DNA of 40,139 nt from Cytophagales bacterium (lineage in GTDB: Bacteria; Bacteroidota; Bacteroidia; Cytophagales; Thermoflexibacteraceae), in contig JAAFJS010000021.1 in NCBI GenBank assembly GCA_013298985.1, forward strand, positions 1 to 40,139, given 5' to 3'. A program made the translations under genes and the position numbers. This document shows, piece by piece, positions 14,276-25,681 of the stretch (positions are counted from its first letter, which is position 1; each line of letters starts with the position of its first letter). The notes under the pieces were generated by a model, which saw nothing but the letters and a program-made list of their open reading frames with translations, did not search any database and had not been told where the DNA came from.

Positions 14276-17200
14276 ATGATAAAAGTTTGGATTGATACAG
14301 GTGGTACTTTTACGGATTGTATTGCCGTTTTTCCTGATGGTAGTGAGCAGAATATCAAGGTGTTAAGTAGTGGGAATCTGCGAGGAAAAATCATTGCTCC
14401 ACTCCATGAAAATACCTTCCAAATCCAAGCGAATTGGCAAACGGAAGCAAATATTTTTGAAGGATATACATTTAAAAGGCTACGCGCCAATAATGCGCCA
14501 ATGCTGAAAATCGTAAAAACTGACCTGCAAAATCAGACTATCACCCTTTCTGCGCCCCTGCCCTTACTGACAGATTTTCCTCTCGACTTCGAGATTACTG
14601 CCTACGAAGAAGCACCTATCTTAGCCACGCGAATAGCTACACAAACCCCTTTGAATCAAGCACTTCCACCTATCCAGATGCGGCTTGGCTCTACCAAAGG
14701 CACTAATGCGCTGCTGGAACGCAAAGGTGCAAAAGTTACCTTGCTCATTACCAAAGGTTTCCGAGATTTGCTCAATATTGGCACGCAGCAACGCCCTCAT
14801 CTTTTTGCGCTTAATATCGTAAAACCTAAGCCTCTGTACGAAAATGTAGTAGAAGTAAATGAACGGCTGGACAGCAAAGGAAATATTTTAAAACAACTAT
14901 CTGATAATGAAATAGATAGAGTTATTGATATTTTAAAAAAACAAAATGTAGAGGCAGTAGCTATTGCTTTCGTGCATAGCTATTTGAATCCAATCCATGA
15001 AATTTTATTAAGACAACAGCTTGAAAAAGAAGGCTTTACTTTGATTTCTTTGTCCTCGGAGTTGGCAAATGCCATCAAAATTTTACCTCGCGCACAAACG
15101 GCACTTGTCAATGCCTATCTTTCTCCTGTTATTCATCATTACTTGTCTTCTATAAAAAGTACAATTTTAGCAGATACATTTTCTTTATTTTTAGATACGG
15201 GAAAAGAGAAAATTCAGCCTTCTTCCCTCAAAGTAATGACCAGCGCGGGCGGCTTGATAGAAGCTGATTTTTTCAATCCCAAAGACAGCCTTTTGAGTGG
15301 ACCCGCAGGCGGAATTGTGGGCGCAATAGAAACGGCAAAACGGGCTGGTTTTCAACAAATTATCACCTTAGACATTGGTGGAACAAGTACAGACGTAGCG
15401 CGCTACAATGGTAGCTTTGATTATCAGTATGAAACTAAAATCAATGATATTCAATTACTTAGCCCCAGCTTGGCAATAGAAACCGTTGCGGCAGGTGGTG
15501 GCTCAGTTTGCACGTTTGACGGGTTCAAGCTGACCGTCGGTCCCGAAAGTGTAGGCGCAAATCCAGGAGCGGCTTGCTACGGAATCGGGGAAAAGTTAGC
15601 CATTACAGATGTAAACTTACTACTTGGAAGGCTACTTCCTGACAATTTTAACATTCCAATCCATCAAGATTTTGCTCAGAAAGCCCTTGAAAAAGTACAA
15701 AAAAAGATTTATGAAGACACAGGAAATTTACTCAAACAAAGTGAAATTTTAGAGGGCTTTGTGCAGATTGTGAATGAAAAAATGACGGAGGCAATCCGCA
15801 AAATTTCAGTGAGCAAAGGCTACAACCCCCAAGATTATGCCTTGTTTGCCTTTGGGGGAGCAGGCGGGCAGCACGCGTGCGCGGTAGCCAAACTATTGAA
15901 TATCAAGCAAATAATTATTCCATACAAGGCAGGCTTACTGAGTGCATTAGGCATGGGTGTAGCGCAAATCGAACGTTTTGCCTCTTTGCAAATTTTAAAA
16001 CCTTTAGCCGAAGTTGAAAATCAGTTTGGAAAAATAATTGAAGATTTAAGCCAAAAAGCACAGCAACAGCTTCAAAAAGAAGGCTTTACAGCAAAAGAAA
16101 TAGAAATAAGAACCATCTATGCCTACTTGCGTTTCAGAGGACAAGACAGCACGATAGAACTCACTTTGCCCACAGTTGAAACCCGAAGTGGAACGTTTGC
16201 CAACAGTTACAACCCAACTTTACCAAAAAATCCTACCAAAAAATTATTGAATGATTTAAAAGAAACCTTCAAAGAAAAGTACGAAAAAATCTATGGGCAT
16301 TGGGTAGGAGAAACACAAACTATTGAAATTGAATCAATTAAAGTAGTTGCTTCAACAAAAAAAGTGGTCAGTAAGGACACAGACAACGGCAAAAATATTG
16401 AAAAGGACGCAGGGAAACCAAGTTATTTCCCCCAGCCTGAAAAATACCATCAAGCCTATTTTAATGGTCGTTTTCAAGAAATTCCTGTCTTTATATGGGA
16501 AAACTTACACGCGGGTGCAAGCATCAAAGGCGCGGCACTTCTGCTCTCTCAAAATAGCTCTGTTTTCATAGAGCCTGAATGGGAATTGGTGATAGACGCA
16601 TCAAATAATGCCCTCCTTCATTTGGCAACGCCCAAACTCACTTCTGAATCGTCAGTAAGTATTGAAAATTTGACCAACAGTGCTATTGATTTAGAATTGT
16701 TTACCAATCGTTTCAAAAGTATTGCCGAAGAAATGGGCGCGCTTTTACAACGCACTTCTTTTTCGGTAAATGTAAAAGAACGTTTGGATTTTTCTTGTGC
16801 ATTGCTGGACGCAAAAGGTGAGCTAATTGTCAATGCACCACATATTCCTGTGCATTTGGGGAGTTTAGGGATTTGTGTGCGAACTTTGAAAAGTGCAATT
16901 CAGATGAGAGAGGGTGATGTGATTATCACCAATCACCCCAGCTTTGGTGGCTCGCACCTACCCGATATTACTTTGGTTGCGCCTGTATTCTTTAAAAATC
17001 AATTAGTTGGCTATGTAGCTAATAGAGCGCACCATGCAGAAATAGGCGGAAAACGACCTGGCTCCATGCCACCCGATGCTACCTGCTTGGCAGAGGAAGG
17101 CGTGGTAATTTCACCTACTTATTTGATGCAAAACTTTGAATTACAATGGGATAAGATAGAAAAAATCTTACTTTCTGCTCCCTTCCCTACGCGAGCAGTC

Positions 17201-18280
17201 CAAGAGAACTTGGCAGATTTGAATGGGGCTTTTGCTTCCATAAAGACAGGAATAGATGCTTTACAAATGCTTTGTCAAAACTATAATATAGAAAAAGTAC
17301 AATTTTATATGCAAGCACTCAAAGACCATGCGTTTTACAGTTTGCAAAAAAGTTTAGAAACATTTTCAGTGATGAAGATGCCTTTTTTTGCCTTGATGGG
17401 TGGTTTTGTTTCAATGAATCTTTTTTTGAACGCTTCCGAAAGATTAGATGATGGCACAAAGCTCAATGTGCGTTTTGAAATTACACAAGATGAAGAAAAT
17501 GAATATGTTGTAACGATAGATTTTAGAGGAACATCTAAGACCCACAAAGGAAATCTGAACGCAACACCAGCGATTGTGAATAGTGCAGTGATTTACGTAT
17601 TGCGCCTTTTGCTGGAAACGAACATTCCTCTTAACGAGGGCATAATGAAAAAAGTCAAATTAAAAATTCCTGAAAATACGATGTTGAACCCTGTGTTTGT
17701 TGAAGACATTTTCCGATGCCCTGCGGTGGTAGGCGGGAATACGGAAACGAGCCAACGTTTGGTTGATACTTTGCTCAGGGCGTTGGGCTTGGCGGCGTGC
17801 AGTCAGGGGACAATGAACAACTTACTCTTTGGAAATGAGCATTTTGGCTACTACGAAACGATTTGTGGAGGTACAGGCGCAGGCGAAGGTTTTAATGGCT
17901 GTGATGCTGTTCACCAGCACATGACCAACACCAGAATTACAGACGTGGAAGTGATGGAATTGCGCTATCCTGTGCGTGTGGAACGCTTTGAGATTCGGGA
18001 AAATTCGGGTGGAGAAGGCAAATGGAAAGGTGGCAACGGCATTGTTCGTGAATTGACTTTTTTGGAAAAAGTTTCACTGAGTGTGCTTACCCAACACCGA
18101 AAAGTGTCCCCGTATGGACTGGAAGGTGGAAAAAATGGAAAAGTAGGCAAGCAGTTTATCATTCGCAAAAATGGTGATATTGAACAACTTAATGGCTTGG
18201 ACAAGCGAGAAATGGAAGTGGGTGATAGGATAGTGATGGAAACACCAGGCGGTGGCGGGTTTGGGGAAGTGCAAAAATGA
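14276..18280 (+). CDS. 5-oxoprolinase / hydantoinase A-B fusion
   Basis: A 1334-residue ATP-dependent 5-oxoprolinase (or related hydantoinase) that opens 5-oxoproline to glutamate in the cytoplasm. The N-terminal HyuA-like half begins IDTGGTFTDCI (nucleotide site), with TKGTNALLERKGAKV, TLDIGGTSTDVARY and FGGAGGQHACAVAKLL. The C-terminal HyuB-like half (from about 780) has ISPTYLM, NHPSFGGSHLPDIT, R-A-H-H-A-E-I-G-G and ends ETPGGGGFGEV. Both halves are intact in one frame. It is somewhat longer than most oxoprolinases (about 1250-1290), with a low-complexity Lys/Asp-rich linker near residue 700. The start lies 6 bp after gldH, suggesting co-transcription. It converges on the PP2C gene with only 13 bp between. 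Confidence 0.92.
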   Translation: MIKVWIDTGGTFTDCIAVFPDGSEQNIKVLSSGNLRGKIIAPLHENTFQIQANWQTEANIFEGYTFKRLRANNAPMLKIVKTDLQNQTITLSAPLPLLTDFPLDFEITAYEEAPILATRIATQTPLNQALPPIQMRLGSTKGTNALLERKGAKVTLLITKGFRDLLNIGTQQRPHLFALNIVKPKPLYENVVEVNERLDSKGNILKQLSDNEIDRVIDILKKQNVEAVAIAFVHSYLNPIHEILLRQQLEKEGFTLISLSSELANAIKILPRAQTALVNAYLSPVIHHYLSSIKSTILADTFSLFLDTGKEKIQPSSLKVMTSAGGLIEADFFNPKDSLLSGPAGGIVGAIETAKRAGFQQIITLDIGGTSTDVARYNGSFDYQYETKINDIQLLSPSLAIETVAAGGGSVCTFDGFKLTVGPESVGANPGAACYGIGEKLAITDVNLLLGRLLPDNFNIPIHQDFAQKALEKVQKKIYEDTGNLLKQSEILEGFVQIVNEKMTEAIRKISVSKGYNPQDYALFAFGGAGGQHACAVAKLLNIKQIIIPYKAGLLSALGMGVAQIERFASLQILKPLAEVENQFGKIIEDLSQKAQQQLQKEGFTAKEIEIRTIYAYLRFRGQDSTIELTLPTVETRSGTFANSYNPTLPKNPTKKLLNDLKETFKEKYEKIYGHWVGETQTIEIESIKVVASTKKVVSKDTDNGKNIEKDAGKPSYFPQPEKYHQAYFNGRFQEIPVFIWENLHAGASIKGAALLLSQNSSVFIEPEWELVIDASNNALLHLATPKLTSESSVSIENLTNSAIDLELFTNRFKSIAEEMGALLQRTSFSVNVKERLDFSCALLDAKGELIVNAPHIPVHLGSLGICVRTLKSAIQMREGDVIITNHPSFGGSHLPDITLVAPVFFKNQLVGYVANRAHHAEIGGKRPGSMPPDATCLAEEGVVISPTYLMQNFELQWDKIEKILLSAPFPTRAVQENLADLNGAFASIKTGIDALQMLCQNYNIEKVQFYMQALKDHAFYSLQKSLETFSVMKMPFFALMGGFVSMNLFLNASERLDDGTKLNVRFEITQDEENEYVVTIDFRGTSKTHKGNLNATPAIVNSAVIYVLRLLLETNIPLNEGIMKKVKLKIPENTMLNPVFVEDIFRCPAVVGGNTETSQRLVDTLLRALGLAACSQGTMNNLLFGNEHFGYYETICGGTGAGEGFNGCDAVHQHMTNTRITDVEVMELRYPVRVERFEIRENSGGEGKWKGGNGIVRELTFLEKVSLSVLTQHRKVSPYGLEGGKNGKVGKQFIIRKNGDIEQLNGLDKREMEVGDRIVMETPGGGGFGEVQK

Positions 18281-18293
18281 GAAAAATAGTACA

Positions 18294-19118
18294 TCATAGT
18301 TTTACGCCCAAAATCAGCGTTTTGTCATCTGGCTCGTTTTTGAGGTGAGTATTGCCACCTTCCAAAAATCCTTGCCAAAGTGTGTTTATCTCGTCTTGGC
18401 TTTTGTTTTGCTGGTATAATTGCTTTAATGCCAATATATTAGGATTAAAAAATTTGGGAAAAGGGCGATTAGGGTCGTAGTAAAGATTTCGTTCTCTGTC
18501 GTAGAGATTGCACTCAAAAGCAGATTTTTCGCAGCCATCAGAGAGCAGGCAAAAAGCAGCAATTTGCCCTGTAACTACCTTACTGCCAATGCTTTTCTCA
18601 AAATCAGACGTGATGAAAATGGTTTGGTTTGCTTCCTCGCCTTTGAAGGGAGTCAGCAGGGGTTTCCATTCTTCGCCTGCGTCCATGTAGCCCGCGCGCC
18701 CATCGCCTACGTGTGCGAGCAAAACTCCTATCGTACTGTAAACCAATACAATAAGCGTACAAGACAAACTTTCAAAGACAATTTCTTTTTGTTCAGAAAA
18801 AATAAATAAATCGTCTTTGATAAGTTTAAAATTTTCTAAGGACAACCTCGCCCACTCTTCTTCGGTAGGTAAGGAGTTTTTCTCTATCCACTTATTTCTA
18901 TACACCAGATTGGCAAAATGCTGAATCGCCAAATTAACCGCGTGTGCCGCGCCTTTATCAGCATATTCGCAAGAGCCAGCCCCGTCCGCAACGACTGCCA
19001 CGCCCCAGCCAGCCCCTAAGTTTTTGATGGCACAGGCATCTTGGCAAGGCAAGTTTTCTTTGATATGCAAATTCCCTATCGCAGAGGCGTAGGCTACTAT
19101 CCAATCTTTGTTTTTCAT
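18294..19118 (-). CDS. PP2C-family serine/threonine protein phosphatase
   Basis: A metal-dependent protein phosphatase (PPM/PP2C_2 type). Motifs: W-I-V-A-Y-A-S-A-I-G-N-L-H, PCQDA, V-V-A-D-G-A-G-S-C with the metal-binding Asp-Gly, LLAHVGDGRAGYM, LLSDGCEKS, and D-D-K-T-L at the end for the last acidic pair. I place the start at the ATG at 19118 (MKNKDW, 274 residues), because family members begin just before this point; the frame can be read further upstream only from a TTG at 19220. The extra 34 codons contain a segment resembling the 3' end of the SpoIIE gene and are probably untranslated. No partner kinase or von Willebrand gene is adjacent. Confidence 0.85.
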   Translation of the reverse strand: MKNKDWIVAYASAIGNLHIKENLPCQDACAIKNLGAGWGVAVVADGAGSCEYADKGAAHAVNLAIQHFANLVYRNKWIEKNSLPTEEEWARLSLENFKLIKDDLFIFSEQKEIVFESLSCTLIVLVYSTIGVLLAHVGDGRAGYMDAGEEWKPLLTPFKGEEANQTIFITSDFEKSIGSKVVTGQIAAFCLLSDGCEKSAFECNLYDRERNLYYDPNRPFPKFFNPNILALKQLYQQNKSQDEINTLWQGFLEGGNTHLKNEPDDKTLILGVKL

Positions 19119-19127
19119 ACGCGCTCT

Positions 19128-19154
19128 ACTACCAAAATATTGTCTATTTGGATT
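19128..19154 (-). repeat. Fossil copy of the SpoIIE-gene 3' end upstream of the PP2C gene
   Basis: On the minus strand AATCCAAATAGACAATATTT and the next seven bases (GGTAGT end) match 24172-24198 with only G-to-A differences over about 27 bases. That second copy is the decayed end of a SpoIIE-phosphatase gene. The PP2C ATG lies nearly where the Met codon of the SpoIIE C-terminus would be. Confidence 0.5.
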
Positions 19155-19229
19155 GCTTTGTATAAATGAGGTGAAGTTTTTTTCATAAGACTCAAATTTT
19201 AAAACTAATTTTTTTGACAAATAGAGAGG

Positions 19230-19688
19230 CTAAAGGTTCATTTGAGTAATATCTATGTAAGCTAATTTTAAGAAATTTTCGTGTAAGTGATGAAAATCCT
19301 TATCAGTGGTAAGCAGGGTAGCATTTAATACTGAGGCTGTTGCTGCAATCCATAAGTCATTTTTTGACATATTCCTTGCACTATCATTTAGGGGATGAGG
19401 TTTTAATTTCCCCTGACTAAATGCGTCTATCACAGCATATTGATTAATGATGGTTTCCACTTTAATATCTGCAATAATAAATTGCTTTAAAAATTGTGAT
19501 AGTTTTTGTTGCTTTTCATCGCCCCAATTATTTTGCAAAGCCAAAGATTTGATTTCCCCAACACTCACCACAGAAATAAGAGGAATGTTTGGACGCTGTA
19601 AGGGTTGATAAATCTGGTCGAGGTAAGCAGAACGATTTTTATCTCTCAAATACAAAAGCAAAATATTAGTATCTAATAAGTAAATCAT
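19230..19688 (-). CDS. VapC-like PIN-domain toxin
   Basis: A 152-residue PIN-domain ribonuclease. The acidic metal-binding residues are all present: Asp6 in LLDTN, Glu45 in V-S-V-G-E-I, Asp111 in K-N-D-L-W-I-A-A-T-A, and Asp129 in TTDKDF. Length and layout are normal for VapC toxins, which cut tRNA or rRNA and are held inactive by a co-made antitoxin. It starts 2 bp after the stop of the small gene upstream, the usual antitoxin-toxin order. The active site is intact, so it is likely functional. Confidence 0.9.
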   Translation of the reverse strand: MIYLLDTNILLLYLRDKNRSAYLDQIYQPLQRPNIPLISVVSVGEIKSLALQNNWGDEKQQKLSQFLKQFIIADIKVETIINQYAVIDAFSQGKLKPHPLNDSARNMSKNDLWIAATASVLNATLLTTDKDFHHLHENFLKLAYIDITQMNL

Positions 19689-19690
19689 AA

Positions 19691-19975
19691 TCAGTCAATT
19701 ATAATTAATTCTTCTAATGTTTCCTCAATATGTATTTCTTCTACCAGAGAGTCAAAATACTGCCTGTCAATACCTGAATAGTTTTGTTTTTGTATCAGAT
19801 TTTCTATAGAAATATCTTTCTGTACTGGTTGAGAAAGTTGGGCGAGCAAATCAAAATCAATCTTTGTATGATTCCAGTCTTGTAGGAGTACCTCTAAATA
19901 TTTAATCAAATATTCATTTTGAGCATCAGCGATTTGCTTAATAAGGCGAAATTTTCTTATTTCTAAATCTTGCAT
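19691..19975 (-). CDS. Antitoxin partner of the VapC-like toxin
   Basis: A small acidic protein (94 residues from the ATG at 19975, MQDLEIRKFRLIKQIADAQN). I prefer this start because the longer reading needs a TTG and would overlap the promoter. The N-terminal amphipathic helix (R-K-F-R-L-I-K-Q-I) and the acidic Glu/Ile-rich tail (VEEIHIEETLEELIIID) fit an antitoxin whose tail wraps the toxin. No classic AbrB or ribbon-helix-helix motif is obvious. Assignment comes mainly from position: it lies 2 bp before vapC and behind a good promoter. Confidence 0.72.
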   Translation of the reverse strand: MQDLEIRKFRLIKQIADAQNEYLIKYLEVLLQDWNHTKIDFDLLAQLSQPVQKDISIENLIQKQNYSGIDRQYFDSLVEEIHIEETLEELIIID

Positions 19976-20005
19976 AATTGTATTTATTTGATGAAAAAAT
20001 TTAAT

Positions 20006-20036
20006 CAAATCTAATAAATCTACAATTATAAAACAA
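20006..20036 (-). promoter_or_regulatory. Promoter of the VapC-type toxin-antitoxin pair
   Basis: On the minus strand TTG (20034-20036), a 20-base spacer and TAGATTTG (20006-20013) match the Bacteroidota -33/-7 arrangement. It lies 31 bases before the antitoxin ATG. The -33 part lies inside a segment duplicated at 24106-24194, where the MazF-type pair has the same arrangement. Confidence 0.6.
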
Positions 20037-20109
20037 TTTTGACTACAAAATCATATTTATATCCTCACAATTTCATTGCGACCCCCACCACCAAAATATC
20101 GTCTATCTG
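20023..20109. repeat. Duplicated segment, copy A (SpoIIE gene 3' end plus downstream promoter region)
   Basis: These 87 bases match 24106-24194 at about 90% by eye, in the same orientation. The best block is 46 bases with one mismatch and covers the last 15 codons of the SpoIIE gene. The rest is the downstream spacer with the -33 part of the antitoxin promoter. Confidence 0.85.
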
Positions 20110-23100
20110 CCGTTCCTTGCCTTCTGCCATCCACTGTTCTATGGTGTCATCAAGGATTTGCTTTTGCTCGTCCATAGGCAAGTGGTGAATAGAAAAGAGC
20201 AATTCTCTGAACCGCTTGACCATGAACTTCTTGCCCTGCGCTCCCCCAAACTGGTCTTGGAATCCGTCGGAACACAGATAAATAATAGTTGATTGTTGTT
20301 GATTGTTACGGTTCGCCGTCGCGATTGTTTGGGGTTGATTTTCTGCATTTTGTATTTCATTCCAGATTTCAGATTTATCATTCCAGATTCCTAACGGAAT
20401 TTCATGTTTGGTGAAGGTGCGTTCCTGCTCCTTTTGCATTCCGCCAATAGGAAATTTGTCTGCTTTGATTTCGTGTAATTCACCGTTTTGAACATAGTAA
20501 AGCGGGTTCATTGCCCCTGCGTATTCTAAAACTCCCTTCTCCTTGTCTATCAATACAATAGCTATATCCATGCCGTCCCGATTTTCAGATTCACCTTGTT
20601 TGAGGGCAGTGCGAATACTTTTGTGTAGCTCATTCAGAATCAAATCAGGGCTTGTAATGCCTTGTATTTCAACGATATTGGTCAATATTTCATTGCCTAT
20701 CATGCTCATAAATGCCCCAGGGACACCATGCCCTGTGCAGTCAGCGCAGGCGAGAATGGTTTTGTCTTCTTTTTTTACAAAAAAGTAAAAATCACCACTC
20801 ACTATATCTCTGGGTTTGAACAAGATAAAAGACTCAAGCAAAGATTTCTGAATATCCTCTATGCGTGGAAGTATCGCAGTTTGAATTCGCTTGGCGTAGG
20901 TGATAGAGGCAGTAATGTCTTCGTTTTTCTTATGAAGTTCGTCATTGGTAGAGTGTAGTTCTTCATTTGCTTCTTTGAGTTCGAGGGTGCGACTGGCAAC
21001 TTGGCTTTCCAATAATTCATTTTTTTGCCGAATGGAGTAGGTGCGCCAGCGTACAATACTCACCATCAGACCAATCAGAAATAAAATGAGTAATGAACGA
21101 AACCACCAAGTTTCATAAAAGAAAGGCTGAATGGTAAAAGTCAAACTTGCACCCTTTTCATTCCAAACGCCATCATTATTGCAGGCAATTACCTGAAAAG
21201 TGTATGTACCCGAAGGGAGATTGGTATAAAAAGCCCTTCGCTCGCCTAATGCACTTATCCAATCTTGGTCGTAGCCCATCAAGCGAAACTTAAATTGTAC
21301 CTTTTCGGGGGCAACCAAGCTCAGTCCACTGTATTCAAAAATAAAACGACGATTTCCAGGGTCAAGGCGCAATGATTGGGTCAAATCTTGCGCTTTGTCT
21401 TCCCATAAAAACTGATGAATCACCACAGAAGGCGGAGTGGGATTTTTAATCAATTTATTAGGGTCTATTTCCACCAAGCCGCCAAAAGTAGGCACTAATA
21501 TCTTTCCATCTGTGGTAATTGCTGAATGTCTTGCCCCTACACATTGGCGATTCAACATTCCGTCTCCATCATCATAAACTTGCCAGTTGATTTTCTCTAT
21601 TTTCTTATCCAAATAATCGTCTAACTCTTGTTTTTTAGCTCTAATCAAACCTCGATTACTCGGAAACCAGATAAAGCCTTGTTTATCAGGTAAAAAATCA
21701 AAAATTCCATTATCAGGCAAACCATCTTTGTAGGTGATATGGGCAAACTTTTTGTTTTGATACCGAGAAATCCCTGAATTAGAAACGAGCCAAATTGTAC
21801 CATTTTTCTCTTCATAAGTATTAAATACACCAATGGTATTCAACCCGTTTTTTTCATTAAAATAAGTGGGTTTTCCCTGAGAATCAATCAATACAATGCC
21901 CTGATTATAGGAAGCTACCAGCCATGTTCCATCAACCAATTTGCGAATGGTAGAAATACTACACCCTTCCAAATTTACTTGTGGTAAATTGAGCATTTCT
22001 AATTCATCTTTGTCATTCAAAAAAGCAATCCCTTTTCTGGGAATTGCAAACCACATTTTTTTCTGATTATCTTCAAAAGCAAATCTGACAATTGCATTGC
22101 TTTGATATGTTTTTTCGCCCTCTTTATTGATTTTAATAATCTTACTAATAGAGCAAATCCAAATATTAGCCTGTGAATCTTTGAAAATATGAAATACTTC
22201 TTCTTTGGCTTTGGCGGCATCTTGATTTTTATATTGATAAGGACTTACTTGCCCATTTTCAATCCATAATAATGTATTGGCATTATAGGTCAAGTATTTA
22301 TTCGGTTCAACCTCACAAACTGCTGAGGTGCGCCCATTCAAAAAACTTCCATCAGTTTGCAGAAAATTGGTGAATTTACTGTAACTCAATTTGAAAATAC
22401 CTTTATCGCTACTCAGCCATATATTTCCTTCTTTGTCTTCTAACATTGAGCTAAAATTAGTAAACTTGAAATAGTCATTGGGGGCAAAAAAGAATTGTGA
22501 TGAATTACTGGGTAAATATGCTACTCCTCCAGGATAAGCCACCCAAATCCCTCCTCTACTATCTTCTAAAATTTGTTTTGGGAAATCAGAATTTAGGCTA
22601 AAAACCTTATCTTTCAGTTCAGGAATTTGAATCATTTTCTCTCCATTCCATAGCCATAAGCCCTTGTTAGAAGATAGCCAAACCCGGCTTTGACTATCTA
22701 CATATAATTTGCCATAAAATACATCATTCGTAATTCCCTCCTGAGCAGTCAAGAAATGTATTTTCCCATCTTTGGACTTTCCTACTCCTCTGCGTGATAA
22801 TCGCCAGATATTACCAAATTTATCAGTTTGATTGGGGATAGTTACTTTTTTTTCTTGCACTAATTTATTGAAAATGAGCGAGTCTAACTCCTGAACTTTC
22901 TTTGATTTTGAATCAAATAGCATAGGTTTTTGAGCAAAAATGAGTAACTGATGATTGGCTTGTAGTATTACCTGATATAAATTATTATAATTAGGAAGGT
23001 ATTGCTCAAATTTGCCCTGCTTGTATGCCAATAAGCCACTACTTTGCGTACCAATCCAAAGCGTACCATTGTCTGTTTCGCTTATCTCAAACACATTGTC

Positions 23101-23346
23101 AGATTTTAGTAATGGCAGATTCCGAGAGTTGAAAGTAGTAAAGCTCACGCCGTCAAATCGGGTAAGCCCTGTATAGCTATTCATCCACAAAAACCCGTCT
23201 TTTGATTGAAATATAGACAGAACCAAATCATTGGGCAACCCTTTTTTGGTATCCCAATGCTCTATTTTCAACCGATTAAAAGGATTTTGAGCAACAACTA
23301 TGTTTGCATAAGCACAAAATATAATGATTAGCAGTTTTTTCATCAT
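20065..23346 (-). CDS. Beta-propeller membrane sensor with SpoIIE-type PP2C phosphatase domain
   Basis: A 1093-residue sensor phosphatase. After a signal peptide (LLIIIFCAYANIVVAQ) comes a long periplasmic part made of two-component-regulator propeller repeats (about 20-640; repeated D-G-x-x-W and L-W-x-x-T units such as NGTLWIGTQSSG), a Y_Y_Y domain (about 670-735), one membrane helix (about 748-768), a coiled coil, and a cytoplasmic SpoIIE phosphatase domain (about 850-1093) with V-S-G-D-F-Y, CADCTGHGVPGAFMSMIGNE, LCSDGFQDQFGG and IDDILVVG supplying the metal-binding Asp residues. It has no kinase domain, so it should dephosphorylate a partner (for example an anti-sigma antagonist) in response to an outside signal. 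A polar insert of about 35 residues near 988-1022 is unusual. Confidence 0.92.
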   Translation of the reverse strand: MMKKLLIIIFCAYANIVVAQNPFNRLKIEHWDTKKGLPNDLVLSIFQSKDGFLWMNSYTGLTRFDGVSFTTFNSRNLPLLKSDNVFEISETDNGTLWIGTQSSGLLAYKQGKFEQYLPNYNNLYQVILQANHQLLIFAQKPMLFDSKSKKVQELDSLIFNKLVQEKKVTIPNQTDKFGNIWRLSRRGVGKSKDGKIHFLTAQEGITNDVFYGKLYVDSQSRVWLSSNKGLWLWNGEKMIQIPELKDKVFSLNSDFPKQILEDSRGGIWVAYPGGVAYLPSNSSQFFFAPNDYFKFTNFSSMLEDKEGNIWLSSDKGIFKLSYSKFTNFLQTDGSFLNGRTSAVCEVEPNKYLTYNANTLLWIENGQVSPYQYKNQDAAKAKEEVFHIFKDSQANIWICSISKIIKINKEGEKTYQSNAIVRFAFEDNQKKMWFAIPRKGIAFLNDKDELEMLNLPQVNLEGCSISTIRKLVDGTWLVASYNQGIVLIDSQGKPTYFNEKNGLNTIGVFNTYEEKNGTIWLVSNSGISRYQNKKFAHITYKDGLPDNGIFDFLPDKQGFIWFPSNRGLIRAKKQELDDYLDKKIEKINWQVYDDGDGMLNRQCVGARHSAITTDGKILVPTFGGLVEIDPNKLIKNPTPPSVVIHQFLWEDKAQDLTQSLRLDPGNRRFIFEYSGLSLVAPEKVQFKFRLMGYDQDWISALGERRAFYTNLPSGTYTFQVIACNNDGVWNEKGASLTFTIQPFFYETWWFRSLLILFLIGLMVSIVRWRTYSIRQKNELLESQVASRTLELKEANEELHSTNDELHKKNEDITASITYAKRIQTAILPRIEDIQKSLLESFILFKPRDIVSGDFYFFVKKEDKTILACADCTGHGVPGAFMSMIGNEILTNIVEIQGITSPDLILNELHKSIRTALKQGESENRDGMDIAIVLIDKEKGVLEYAGAMNPLYYVQNGELHEIKADKFPIGGMQKEQERTFTKHEIPLGIWNDKSEIWNEIQNAENQPQTIATANRNNQQQSTIIYLCSDGFQDQFGGAQGKKFMVKRFRELLFSIHHLPMDEQKQILDDTIEQWMAEGKERQIDDILVVGVAMKL

Positions 23347-23407: not shown

Positions 23408-23479
23408 TCATATCATGAAATAAGTAAATTTAGTGTAACAAACAAACAGCAGAATTACCAAGCCAATCGCTTTTTTCAT
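23408..23479 (-). pseudogene. Orphan signal-peptide fragment upstream of the SpoIIE gene
   Basis: ATG at 23479 opens a 23-codon frame, MKKAIGLVILLFVCYTKF then T-Y-F-M-I-stop, which looks like the start of an exported protein. It lies 14 bases after the MazF-type gene stop and ends 62 bases before the real SpoIIE start. The same 5' sequence recurs at 24219-24250 in the deleted copy, so I read it as the left-over start of another gene of this family. It could instead be a short leader peptide. Confidence 0.45.
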
Positions 23480-23489
23480 GGAGATTCAG
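23458..23489. repeat. Duplicated gene-start segment, copy A
   Basis: 32 bases (CCAAGCCAATCGCTTTTTTC onward to 23489) match 24219-24250 with two mismatches, same orientation. On the minus strand the segment reads CTGAATCTCCATGAAAAAAG and then GCGATTGGCTTGG, a gene start. Confidence 0.8.
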
Positions 23490-23492
23490 GTT

Positions 23493-23846
23493 TTAGTCAA
23501 GTTCAAATACCATTTTCAATGCTTCGTCTATTTGTAAGAGGTAATTTTTTTCTATGACACCTCTGATTGCTACCAATCTTTCTTTGTAATCTACAGGGCG
23601 TGTTTGTAGGCAATCAGCTACAGAGGGTTTGGTAAGTCCGTTGAGTTCAGAGGGGTGTAGTGTTACATTGGTTTTGATAAGTGCTTTTTTCTCAGACCAT
23701 TCTGTAACGGGGACAACTTGGATTACTGATAGTTTTTCATTATAAATATCATTTGTTACCACAATACAAGGACGAATTTTACCCGTTTCAGAGCCTTTGC
23801 TTGGGTCAAGATTCAGGTCTAAGACCATTCCACGTTTGATTTTCAT
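23493..23846 (-). CDS. MazF/PemK-family toxin (endoribonuclease)
   Basis: A 117-residue protein of the MazF/PemK/CcdB fold. The opening K-R-G-M-V-L-D-L-N-L-D-P-S-K-G-S-E and G-K-I-R-P-C-I-V-V-T-N-D are the hallmark of MazF toxins (GDIVxVDLDPxxGSExGKxRPxVVV). Arg25 and Thr48 occupy the positions known to be catalytic in the family, so the toxin is probably active as an mRNA interferase. Its ATG overlaps the stop of the upstream antitoxin gene by 4 bp. It lies just upstream of the SpoIIE gene. Confidence 0.9.
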   Translation of the reverse strand: MKIKRGMVLDLNLDPSKGSETGKIRPCIVVTNDIYNEKLSVIQVVPVTEWSEKKALIKTNVTLHPSELNGLTKPSVADCLQTRPVDYKERLVAIRGVIEKNYLLQIDEALKMVFELD

Positions 23847-24073
23847 TCCACCATGTCATTTAAGGCACTTTCCGTTAAAAGTTTTAATTCTTCATCTTCT
23901 TCATAGATTTCCGCATACAATTGTGCTGATAGAGATAATTCTCTACGTTTCTGTAACTCTTTCTCAAGCAGATGAAAGGCATATAAAACCAAATCTACCT
24001 CACTATCAAATCCAAGTTCTTTGAATTGAGTAATAATATTACCTTTTTCTTGTGGAATATCTAATGTAAGCAT
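23843..24073 (-). CDS. Antitoxin partner of the MazF-type toxin
   Basis: A 76-residue protein (MLTLDIPQEKGNIITQFKEL) with a central helix rich in charged residues (H-L-L-E-K-E-L-Q-K-R-R-E-L) and an acidic tail (IYEEDEELKLLTES). It overlaps the toxin start by 4 bp and has its own promoter, the expected arrangement for an antitoxin. The segment G-F-D-S-E-V-D-L-V-L-Y-A-F-H-L-L-E-K could be a ribbon-helix-helix DNA-binding part. Family not firmly recognised; call based on position, size and charge. Confidence 0.75.
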   Translation of the reverse strand: MLTLDIPQEKGNIITQFKELGFDSEVDLVLYAFHLLEKELQKRRELSLSAQLYAEIYEEDEELKLLTESALNDMVE

Positions 24074-24089
24074 AGCGATATATTTTAAT

Positions 24090-24120
24090 CAAAAATATAA
24101 AAAAGCAATTTATAAAGCAA
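24090..24120 (-). promoter_or_regulatory. Promoter of the MazF-type toxin-antitoxin pair
   Basis: On the minus strand TTG (24118-24120), a 20-base spacer and TATTTTTG (24090-24097) match the Bacteroidota consensus with ideal spacing. It lies 17 bases before the antitoxin ATG and is closely related to the promoter at 20006-20036. Confidence 0.6.
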
Positions 24121-24194
24121 TTTTGACTACAAAATCTTATTTCACACCCTCACAATTTCATTGCGACTCCCACCACCAAAATATCGTCTATCTG
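24106..24194. repeat. Duplicated segment, copy B (SpoIIE 3' end plus downstream promoter region)
   Basis: Second copy of 20023-20109 (about 90% by eye), same orientation. Here the coding part is not attached to a gene: it stops at 24194, exactly where the match to the SpoIIE gene ends. Confidence 0.85.
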
Positions 24195-24240
24195 GATTAA
24201 AATAATATTTTTCCCAAGCCAAGCTAATCGCTTTTTTGAT
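24150..24240 (-). pseudogene. Deletion scar of a second SpoIIE-phosphatase gene
   Basis: Read on the minus strand, a gene start like that at 23479 (but ATG changed to ATC at 24240; I-K-K-A-I-S-L-A-W) runs after about 45 bases into the last 14 codons of the SpoIIE gene (Q-I-D-D-I-L-V-V-G-V-A-M-K-L-stop, 24150-24194). The two parts are in different frames. The simplest reading is that a paralog of the 20065-23346 gene lost its whole interior, leaving only its two ends. Confidence 0.6.
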
Positions 24241-24250
24241 GGAGATTCAG
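24219..24250. repeat. Duplicated gene-start segment, copy B
   Basis: 32 bases matching 23458-23489 with two mismatches, one of which destroys the ATG. This is the upstream end of the deletion scar. Confidence 0.8.
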
Positions 24251-24340
24251 TTTTTTTGGGAAATATTTTTTTCACAAGTAGAGGTAAGTAAAATCAATCC
24301 TTAAAGGTAACAATTTTTAGTATTTTCAAGAGATTTTTTG

Positions 24341-24348: not shown

Positions 24349-24385
24349 CATAAAGAAATAGGCAAAAATGAAAGAGAAAAATAAA

Positions 24386-25027
24386 ATGAAAACTTTTGAA
24401 AAGTGGAAAATAGATGAACTAATCAATACTTTTGGGTTAAGGCGCAATCGTAATCCAAACTTTCCTCCTTTGGCTGATTGGCTAAAAGCAAAATCAGTGA
24501 TTACAAAGGAAGATACAACAGTATTAGAGGAAATTCAAAAAGACTTACAAGATAATGCGGAATATTGGAATGAAGATGAATTAAAGTTTATGTTCATCAG
24601 TCCTTTTCTTAAAATTGTAAATCTTAAAAGTAGCTATTATAAAATCTTTACACAACGCCCTATTTCTGCGGAGGTTAAAAACACGAAGTTGAATGGTATT
24701 GTAGATTTTGTGATTGCCAAAGGCGAAGCAGAGCCTCAAAAGCCTTATTTCTTTATTCACGAGTATAAGCAGGAAAAGAAAAGTGCTAATGACCCTACAG
24801 CACAGCTATTGGCAGAAATGCTGGCAGCGCAAGTACAAAATGAAAATGATACCCCGCTTTACGGCTGCTACGTCATGGGTAGATTTTGGTTTTTTATTGT
24901 TTTGCAGGGCAATGAGTATTCCATAAGTAATGCTTACAATGCTTCTGACGATGATATTTTTCAGATTGTGAGCATTTTACGAGCAGCAAAAATAAAAATA
25001 GAAGAAAGAATAAAATTAGAAAAATAA
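24386..25027 (+). CDS. PD-(D/E)XK nuclease-like protein, first tandem copy
   Basis: A protein of 213 residues with a restriction-endonuclease-like motif set: Glu-rich helix (W-N-E-D-E-L-K-F-M-F, 61-70), Asp107 in N-G-I-V-D-F-V-I-A, Glu126-x-Lys128 in F-F-I-H-E-Y-K-Q-E and Gln140 in A-Q-L-L-A-E-M. This D, ExK, Q order is that of PD-(D/E)XK nucleases. I do not know its target. The start at 24386 is chosen because it lines up with the second copy (MKTFEKWKIDE); an ATG at 24368 adds MKEKNK and is an alternative. The neighbour gene 15 bp downstream is a clear paralog. Whether it cuts DNA is inferred from motifs only. Confidence 0.72.
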   Translation: MKTFEKWKIDELINTFGLRRNRNPNFPPLADWLKAKSVITKEDTTVLEEIQKDLQDNAEYWNEDELKFMFISPFLKIVNLKSSYYKIFTQRPISAEVKNTKLNGIVDFVIAKGEAEPQKPYFFIHEYKQEKKSANDPTAQLLAEMLAAQVQNENDTPLYGCYVMGRFWFFIVLQGNEYSISNAYNASDDDIFQIVSILRAAKIKIEERIKLEK

Positions 25028-25042
25028 AATTAGAGAAATGCA

Positions 25043-25681
25043 ATGAAAACTTTTGAAAAATGGAAAATAGATGAAGTCATAGATACTTTTGGACTCAAAC
25101 GCATCTATGATATAAACTTTGCACCCCTATCAGAGTGGTTAAAGTCTAACTACGCCATTTCTGATTTAGAAAAAATGCAGATAGAAGATTTAAAATCAGA
25201 GTTACAAATCAATGCAGAATATTGGAACGAAGATGAGTTGAAATTTATGTTTATTAGCCCTTTTCTTAAAGTGGTGAATCTAAGAAGTCCATATTATAAA
25301 ATTTTCACACAACGCCCTATTTCTGCGGAAGTAAAAGGCATAAAAATGAACGGAATCGTTGATTTGGTAATCGCAAAGGGAGAAGCCGCACCCAAAAAGC
25401 CTTTTTTCTTCATTCATGAGTATAAGCAGGAGCAAAAAGGAAATAATGACCCTATTGCTCAATTAGTTACTGAAATGTTAGTAGCACAGGCACAAAATGA
25501 AAATGATACACCACTTTACGGTTGCTACGTCATGGGAAGGTTTTGGTTTTTCGTCATACTCCAAGGACATGAATATGCGGTAAGTGATGCTTATACAGCT
25601 ACACAAGACGATATTTTTCAGATTGTGAGCATTTTACGGGCAGTAAAAATAAAAATTGAAGACAGAATAAAATCAGAATAA
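25043..25681 (+). CDS. PD-(D/E)XK nuclease-like protein, second tandem copy
   Basis: 212 residues, roughly 70% identical by eye to the preceding gene, with the same motifs (N-G-I-V-D-L-V-I-A, F-F-I-H-E-Y-K-Q-E, Q-L-V-T-E-M) fully kept. The long block NAEYWNEDELKFMFISPFLK is identical but for its last neighbours, and DTPLYGCYVMGRFWFF is identical. Divergence is concentrated in residues 17-55, which may be the part that decides partner or target. Only 15 bp separate the two genes and the second has no visible promoter, so they are probably co-translated from one mRNA, perhaps as a heterodimer. Confidence 0.72.
   Translation: MKTFEKWKIDEVIDTFGLKRIYDINFAPLSEWLKSNYAISDLEKMQIEDLKSELQINAEYWNEDELKFMFISPFLKVVNLRSPYYKIFTQRPISAEVKGIKMNGIVDLVIAKGEAAPKKPFFFIHEYKQEQKGNNDPIAQLVTEMLVAQAQNENDTPLYGCYVMGRFWFFVILQGHEYAVSDAYTATQDDIFQIVSILRAVKIKIEDRIKSE

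Follow-up and report, generated by a model that had tools for sequence, protein, structure and literature searches.

Gene-end relics beside a SpoIIE sensor-phosphatase gene suggest a decayed tandem array in a Cytophagales bacterium

How a sequence resembling a gene start came to be joined, within a few tens of bases, to the last codons of a sensor-phosphatase gene, close to a complete gene with the same ending, is the question raised by a locus of a Cytophagales bacterium (Thermoflexibacteraceae; assembly GCA_013298985.1; 6.06 Mb on 383 contigs). The stretch analyzed, in the following called the window, comprises 40,139 nt of contig JAAFJS010000021.1. An earlier note on this DNA had described the join as the scar of a second 3-kb sensor-phosphatase gene, lost by internal deletion from a former tandem array of units that each held a sensor phosphatase and a toxin-antitoxin (TA) module. 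Read along the minus strand, the locus starts next to divergent genes of the PD-(D/E)XK type on the plus strand and continues with a lead block (24256-24285), a start-like block U' (24219-24255), a filler of 24 nt (24195-24218), an orphan gene tail T' (24150-24194), a spacer P' (24077-24149), a small gene of 76 aa in antitoxin position (23843-24073) and a PemK/MazF-type toxin gene (23493-23846; Pfam PF02452, 5.8e-23), the start of which the small gene overlaps. Directly behind the stop of the toxin gene stands the block U (23458-23494), followed after 111 bp by the living gene (20065-23346; 1093 aa) with domain matches to a Reg_prop propeller, Y_Y_Y and a SpoIIE phosphatase, the last 14 codons and stop of which (20065-20109) are termed T. 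Behind it follow the spacer P (19993-20064), a second gene in antitoxin position (19691-19975; 94 aa from the first ATG), a PIN-domain (VapC-like) toxin gene (19230-19688; Pfam PF01850, 1.9e-10), a second relic (19112-19226) and a PP2C phosphatase gene (18294-19118; Pfam PP2C_2, 1.5e-35, on the longer frame from TTG 19220). The scar had been placed between two TA modules, which does not hold: it is flanked by MazEF and by the divergent PD-(D/E)XK-type gene, and the gene between both modules is the living SpoIIE gene. The adjoining PD-(D/E)XK-type genes, at 24368 and 25043 on the plus strand, form a tandem pair (24364-25681) with 73% amino acid identity, and their family has 49 matches in the own genome at E 1e-10 or better, the window pair included; when eight proteins were submitted to PADLOC, only the PD-(D/E)XK-type gene gave a match, to Cas-associated nuclease models.

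The pieces that compose the scar correspond closely to sequences around the living gene. Within the window, U' matches U in 34 of 37 nt (blastn E 1.2e-7), with the ATG of U changed to ATC at 24240-24238, and the stretch 24084-24194, comprising T' and most of P', matches 20000-20109 with 87.5% identity over 112 columns (blastn E 1.9e-30). Taken separately, T' agrees with the living gene's tail in 44 of 45 nt, the single difference being synonymous, and P' agrees with P in 59 of 75 positions. Alignment thus bore out what had been said about the composition of the scar, namely a gene-start-like sequence with ATG changed to ATC, joined to the last 14 codons of the SpoIIE gene and its downstream spacer. 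The scar itself contains no coding gene, as the ATG is lost and U', counted from the ATC, and T' lie 46 nt apart in different frames. When the 6.06 Mb were searched for a 32-nt pattern of U, allowing three mismatches at most, two places fitted the pattern and none fitted its reversed control; mononucleotide-shuffled U scored at most 11 compared with 31 for the real pair, and the shuffled P spacer reached a maximum of 25 (mean 14.7) compared with 39 (1000 shuffles each). A chance origin of the matches is therefore excluded. A structured RNA or a terminator at the scar is unsupported: the hairpin is unremarkable (z -1.27 as DNA; -0.61 in the second folding test), no terminator-like site lies at the scar, and both types of site looked for were fewer than the mean of the shuffles. 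Read as reverse complement, the adjacent 24256-24272 is similar to the filler (inverted match score of 12, a value that 9 of 2000 shuffles also attained, for a target picked after sighting), as would be expected if repair had copied nearby DNA, and this likeness is at most suggestive.

From which gene the tail was derived can be judged by comparison with the paralogs. A search of the own genome with the scar gave, besides the scar, the two corresponding stretches of the window and the ends of two SpoIIE genes on other contigs (E 4e-4 and 8e-4), with 40 of 125 first-look candidates scored; as only part of the candidates was scored in the genome searches that gave many of them, including the profile search described below, weak far copies could be missed. 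A codon-degenerate tail pattern has exact matches at eight places in the genome, of which seven lie inside SpoIIE open reading frames (ORFs) and T' is the sole orphan. A regular expression applied to 25 loci (L001-L025) gave ten SpoIIE-type tails, i.e., those of the scar, the living gene and eight paralogs, and paralog loci that did not fit the expression were left out of the scoring. Against T', the living tail scores 43 and the eight paralog tails score 14-24, which rules these out as the source; against P', the living spacer scores 39 and the paralog spacers 9-18. Because the scar is closer to the living copy than to any of these paralogs, and because the similarity continues into the non-coding spacer, T' and P' derive from this very gene and its flank. 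The possibility that the segments are a dispersed repeat or mobile element, which would have spoken against the deletion scenario, was also checked and is not supported: U stands at two places only, exact matches to the tail pattern otherwise lie within SpoIIE genes, and the unit-end sequences were found at this locus only. A search of viral_contigs gave no exact match.

U is not the start of the living gene. The earlier note had described 23458-23489 as a gene-start sequence, but the living ATG, at 23346, lies 133 bp further on than the ATG of U at 23479. The ORF opened by U (23408-23479) stops after 23 codons and looks, read by eye, like a signal peptide. Of the weak genomic matches to U, two, on contigs C338 and C248, were inspected, and neither looks like the start of a sensor gene: one opens a short frame inside a longer open frame of another phase, and in the other the ATG is replaced by TTG. 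The living protein gives 162 match segments in the own genome and 14 loci at 21-35% identity in genome_contigs; many, though not all, of the paralog matches break within the SpoIIE domain at 20293-20391 (query residues ~986-1018, ~33 residues). With Reg_prop, Y_Y_Y and SpoIIE the protein has all three domains of the propeller sensors with SpoIIE output of Bacteroidota, but differs in having no close counterpart in two genomes of the same genus (best 31%).

Another relic, more diverged than the scar, stands behind the PIN toxin gene and ahead of the PP2C gene. Its first sign was a 27-nt match at 19128-19154 in a repeat search, and gapped alignment of the scar with 19112-19226 recovers lead, U-like and T-like blocks in collinear order with a score of 81. 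None of 2000 first-order Markov sequences (maximum 65) and none of 2832 random window segments (best 67) scored as high, and the core, with 24 of 27 positions identical, exceeds the best match in all 60 simulations of the whole window (21). Divided into parts, plain shuffles did as well as the relic in 0 of 500 cases for the U' region, 1 of 500 for T' and 7 of 500 for T. With the start of the living gene, in two cuts of the region, 41 and 19 of 500 shuffles aligned as well, and homology to that start is unsupported. The relic is too diverged to be detected by blastn at E 0.01 and rests on the gapped alignment. A profile built from the sequences of both relics recovers, in the own genome, these sequences by construction, and T; beyond these nothing is better than E 0.007 (150 of 1901 first-look candidates scored), the two matches that come directly after T being ends of SpoIIE genes and U itself reaching E 0.7. 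On 25 further loci of the own and related genomes the profile gave nothing better than E 0.025. The second relic contains an ORF of 23 codons (19115-19186) that shares its frame with the T-like end and whose TGA overlaps the PP2C start codon ATG (19118-19115). The lead block is common to both relics and is absent before U, and both carry AATC just before a CAG/CAA codon, whereas the living gene lacks AATC. The common junction bases are four only, the rest of the two fillers aligns poorly, and T' is far nearer to T (44/45) than to the second relic (24/27).

The spacers P and P' both stand ahead of TA operons and may carry promoters. P' contains TTG-N20-TATTTTTG at 24090-24120 ahead of MazEF, and P contains TTG-N20-TAGATTTG at 20006-20036 ahead of the PIN-toxin operon. 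These are the only two sites in the window that fit TTG-N20-TAnnTTTG, where chance alone predicts 1.26 and at least two appeared in 29 of 100 shuffles. The Bacteroidetes promoter consensus is given as TTTG/TANNTTTG with a revised -7 element TAHHTTTG (PMC6847099). Compared with it, the -33 element in both spacers is ATTG and agrees in three of four positions, and the -7 element of P' fits the revised form, while in P one of the two H positions is occupied by G. From these elements P is probably a TA promoter, on modest evidence, and P' may drive transcription of the MazEF operon, a role that would account for the retention of the tail end. No homology links the TA module behind P to that behind P' (antitoxin match at E 6-8 only); duplication of complete units alone is hence insufficient, and at least one module must have been exchanged or inserted after duplication. 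As in type II systems (MazEF/PemK, VapBC), the PemK/MazF and PIN toxin genes each stand behind a small partner gene, which in the former case overlaps the toxin gene as in MazEF/PemK-type modules. In contrast to these systems, no recognizable antitoxin is encoded, as neither the 76-aa nor the 94-aa protein matched a Pfam, NCBIfam or PADLOC model, and the sequence preceding each operon corresponds to the sensor gene's 3' flank. Behind a different SpoIIE gene, on another contig (C101; L151 15089-18788), stand a PIN toxin gene and a ParE-type toxin gene that is accompanied by a weak antitoxin match.

Relatives provide context for the flanks, for the PP2C gene and for tandem arrangement. Neither two SpoIIE genes nor even one was found at this place in any relative searched, a result that speaks no more against a lost second gene than for one. 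Among 11 relatives, seven of which have a match at E 1e-100, the closest protein to the living one has 35% identity, and plasmids yielded weak relatives only, the best being a full-length one of 35% on a Bernardetia sp. plasmid. Left of the locus, both same-genus genomes (G001 and G002) have the oxoprolinase-like gene (14276-18280), at 75%; its neighbor GldH stands next to it in G001 as well, though it was not seen in the stretch compared in G002, and the right side differs in both. The G002 counterpart of the gene at 25043 (88%) lacks the block beside it. When the scar DNA was searched against 38 relatives, the best match (E 5e-10) was to a P-like stretch of G002 and the others had E 2.6e-5 or weaker; the P-like stretch (L027 1501-1568) is 79% identical over 68 nt and lies ahead of a gene for 199 aa. 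PP2C matches at E 1e-20 occur in 3 of 13 genomes of the family (own, G001 and G002), and the orthologs in the latter two (67-68%) stand behind a VWA gene with gaps of 15 and 0 bp. Loss of the VWA gene from the own genome is ruled out, as it is intact on contig C59, with 92 and 86% identity to the copies in the relatives and no PP2C gene behind it. The PP2C gene has apparently moved away from its VWA partner. Elsewhere in the own genome, contig C290 (L150 1926-12764) carries three complete Reg_prop/Y_Y_Y/SpoIIE genes in tandem, 105 and 108 bp apart and 43-46% identical.

Taken together, we favor, with a probability of about 0.6, the reading that sensor-phosphatase units once stood in tandem at 18.3-24.3 kb and that this array has decayed, two of the units having collapsed by internal deletion. 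The ancestral unit would have consisted, in this order, of lead, U, sensor gene, T, P and accessory module. The middle unit would have kept its sensor gene, while the upstream unit would have lost everything from U' to the last 14 codons, leaving the scar, with the junction sealed by a short filler that was perhaps locally templated; a third, more diverged unit would have undergone the same collapse in front of the PP2C gene. If P' is the promoter of MazEF, a need to keep these genes expressed could have set where the deletion stopped. This account is favored by the tail copied from this very gene, the restriction of U to two places, the orphan state of T', the collinear second relic, the tandem genes on C290, the adjoining gene pair and the restriction of the TTG-N20-TAnnTTTG sites to P and P'. 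Against it count the missing interior, the distance of U from the living start, the unlike TA modules, the P-like stretch ahead of another gene in G002 with weaker ones in other genomes, and the second relic, which lies below blastn detection and aligns weakly with T and hardly with the living start. Of what the earlier note had proposed, the idea of an array is strengthened by the second relic and by C290, but the unlike TA modules do not follow from repetition of one unit alone. The loss of a second 3-kb gene agrees with end pieces that lie in order, with a tail that comes from this gene, while nothing of an interior survives; a full-length gene in either relic is inferred.

The existence of end pieces alone would also fit a history in which no second full gene was ever present and a template switch or complex duplication copied U and T-P together with the acquisition of MazEF, which would thereby have been supplied with a ready promoter. 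The promoter-like elements ahead of both TA operons with their equal 20-nt spacing, the difference between the modules and the apparently locally templated filler agree with such partial copying. We regard it as unlikely, as it requires two separate end pieces to land in the right order and orientation, a block order that recurs in the second relic, and as full tandem arrays of this gene type are present in the own genome. The features that the two relics share bear on how often the deletion happened: with a common junction, one deletion may have been copied rather than made twice. In its full form, where the U-T junction arose once, the collapsed unit was duplicated or moved and T' was then converted toward the living tail, this history accounts for the shared lead block and for AATC, yet it has to accommodate the few common junction bases, the otherwise dissimilar fillers and the far greater nearness of T' to T, and appears rather improbable to us. 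That the fragmented assembly joined unrelated ends might be suspected from its many contigs and from the repeats in the region; since the relic sequences diverge by 2-21% from their living counterparts, collapsed or re-used reads are not their source, and such a chimera is very improbable. As an extension of the decayed tandem array, one could speculate, with considerable doubt, that the array forms a frame whose content can be exchanged, in which the unit ends (lead-U and T-P) were kept, sensor bodies, TA modules and the relocated PP2C gene were swapped, and collapsed ends were re-used as a MazEF promoter and as a 23-codon leader ORF coupling translation of PP2C.

Relics of tandem-duplicated genes that result from internal deletion are known from the birth-and-death evolution of gene families. 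The present case resembles them in that two gene-end pieces are retained in order and orientation beside a living paralog with the middle gone, and differs in that there are two relics per locus, one of which is an in-frame short ORF overlapping the start of a gene from elsewhere. A literature search covering listings and abstract openings did not find a description of this case. The type of event is ordinary genome decay, well preserved here, and as the process itself is familiar its general interest is modest; newly described beyond the scar is the second relic. The locus provides a fossil of how large sensor families may grow and shrink, by tandem duplication followed by deletion that spares ends which neighbors may need, and dead gene ends may now have new roles, as promoter or leader ORF.
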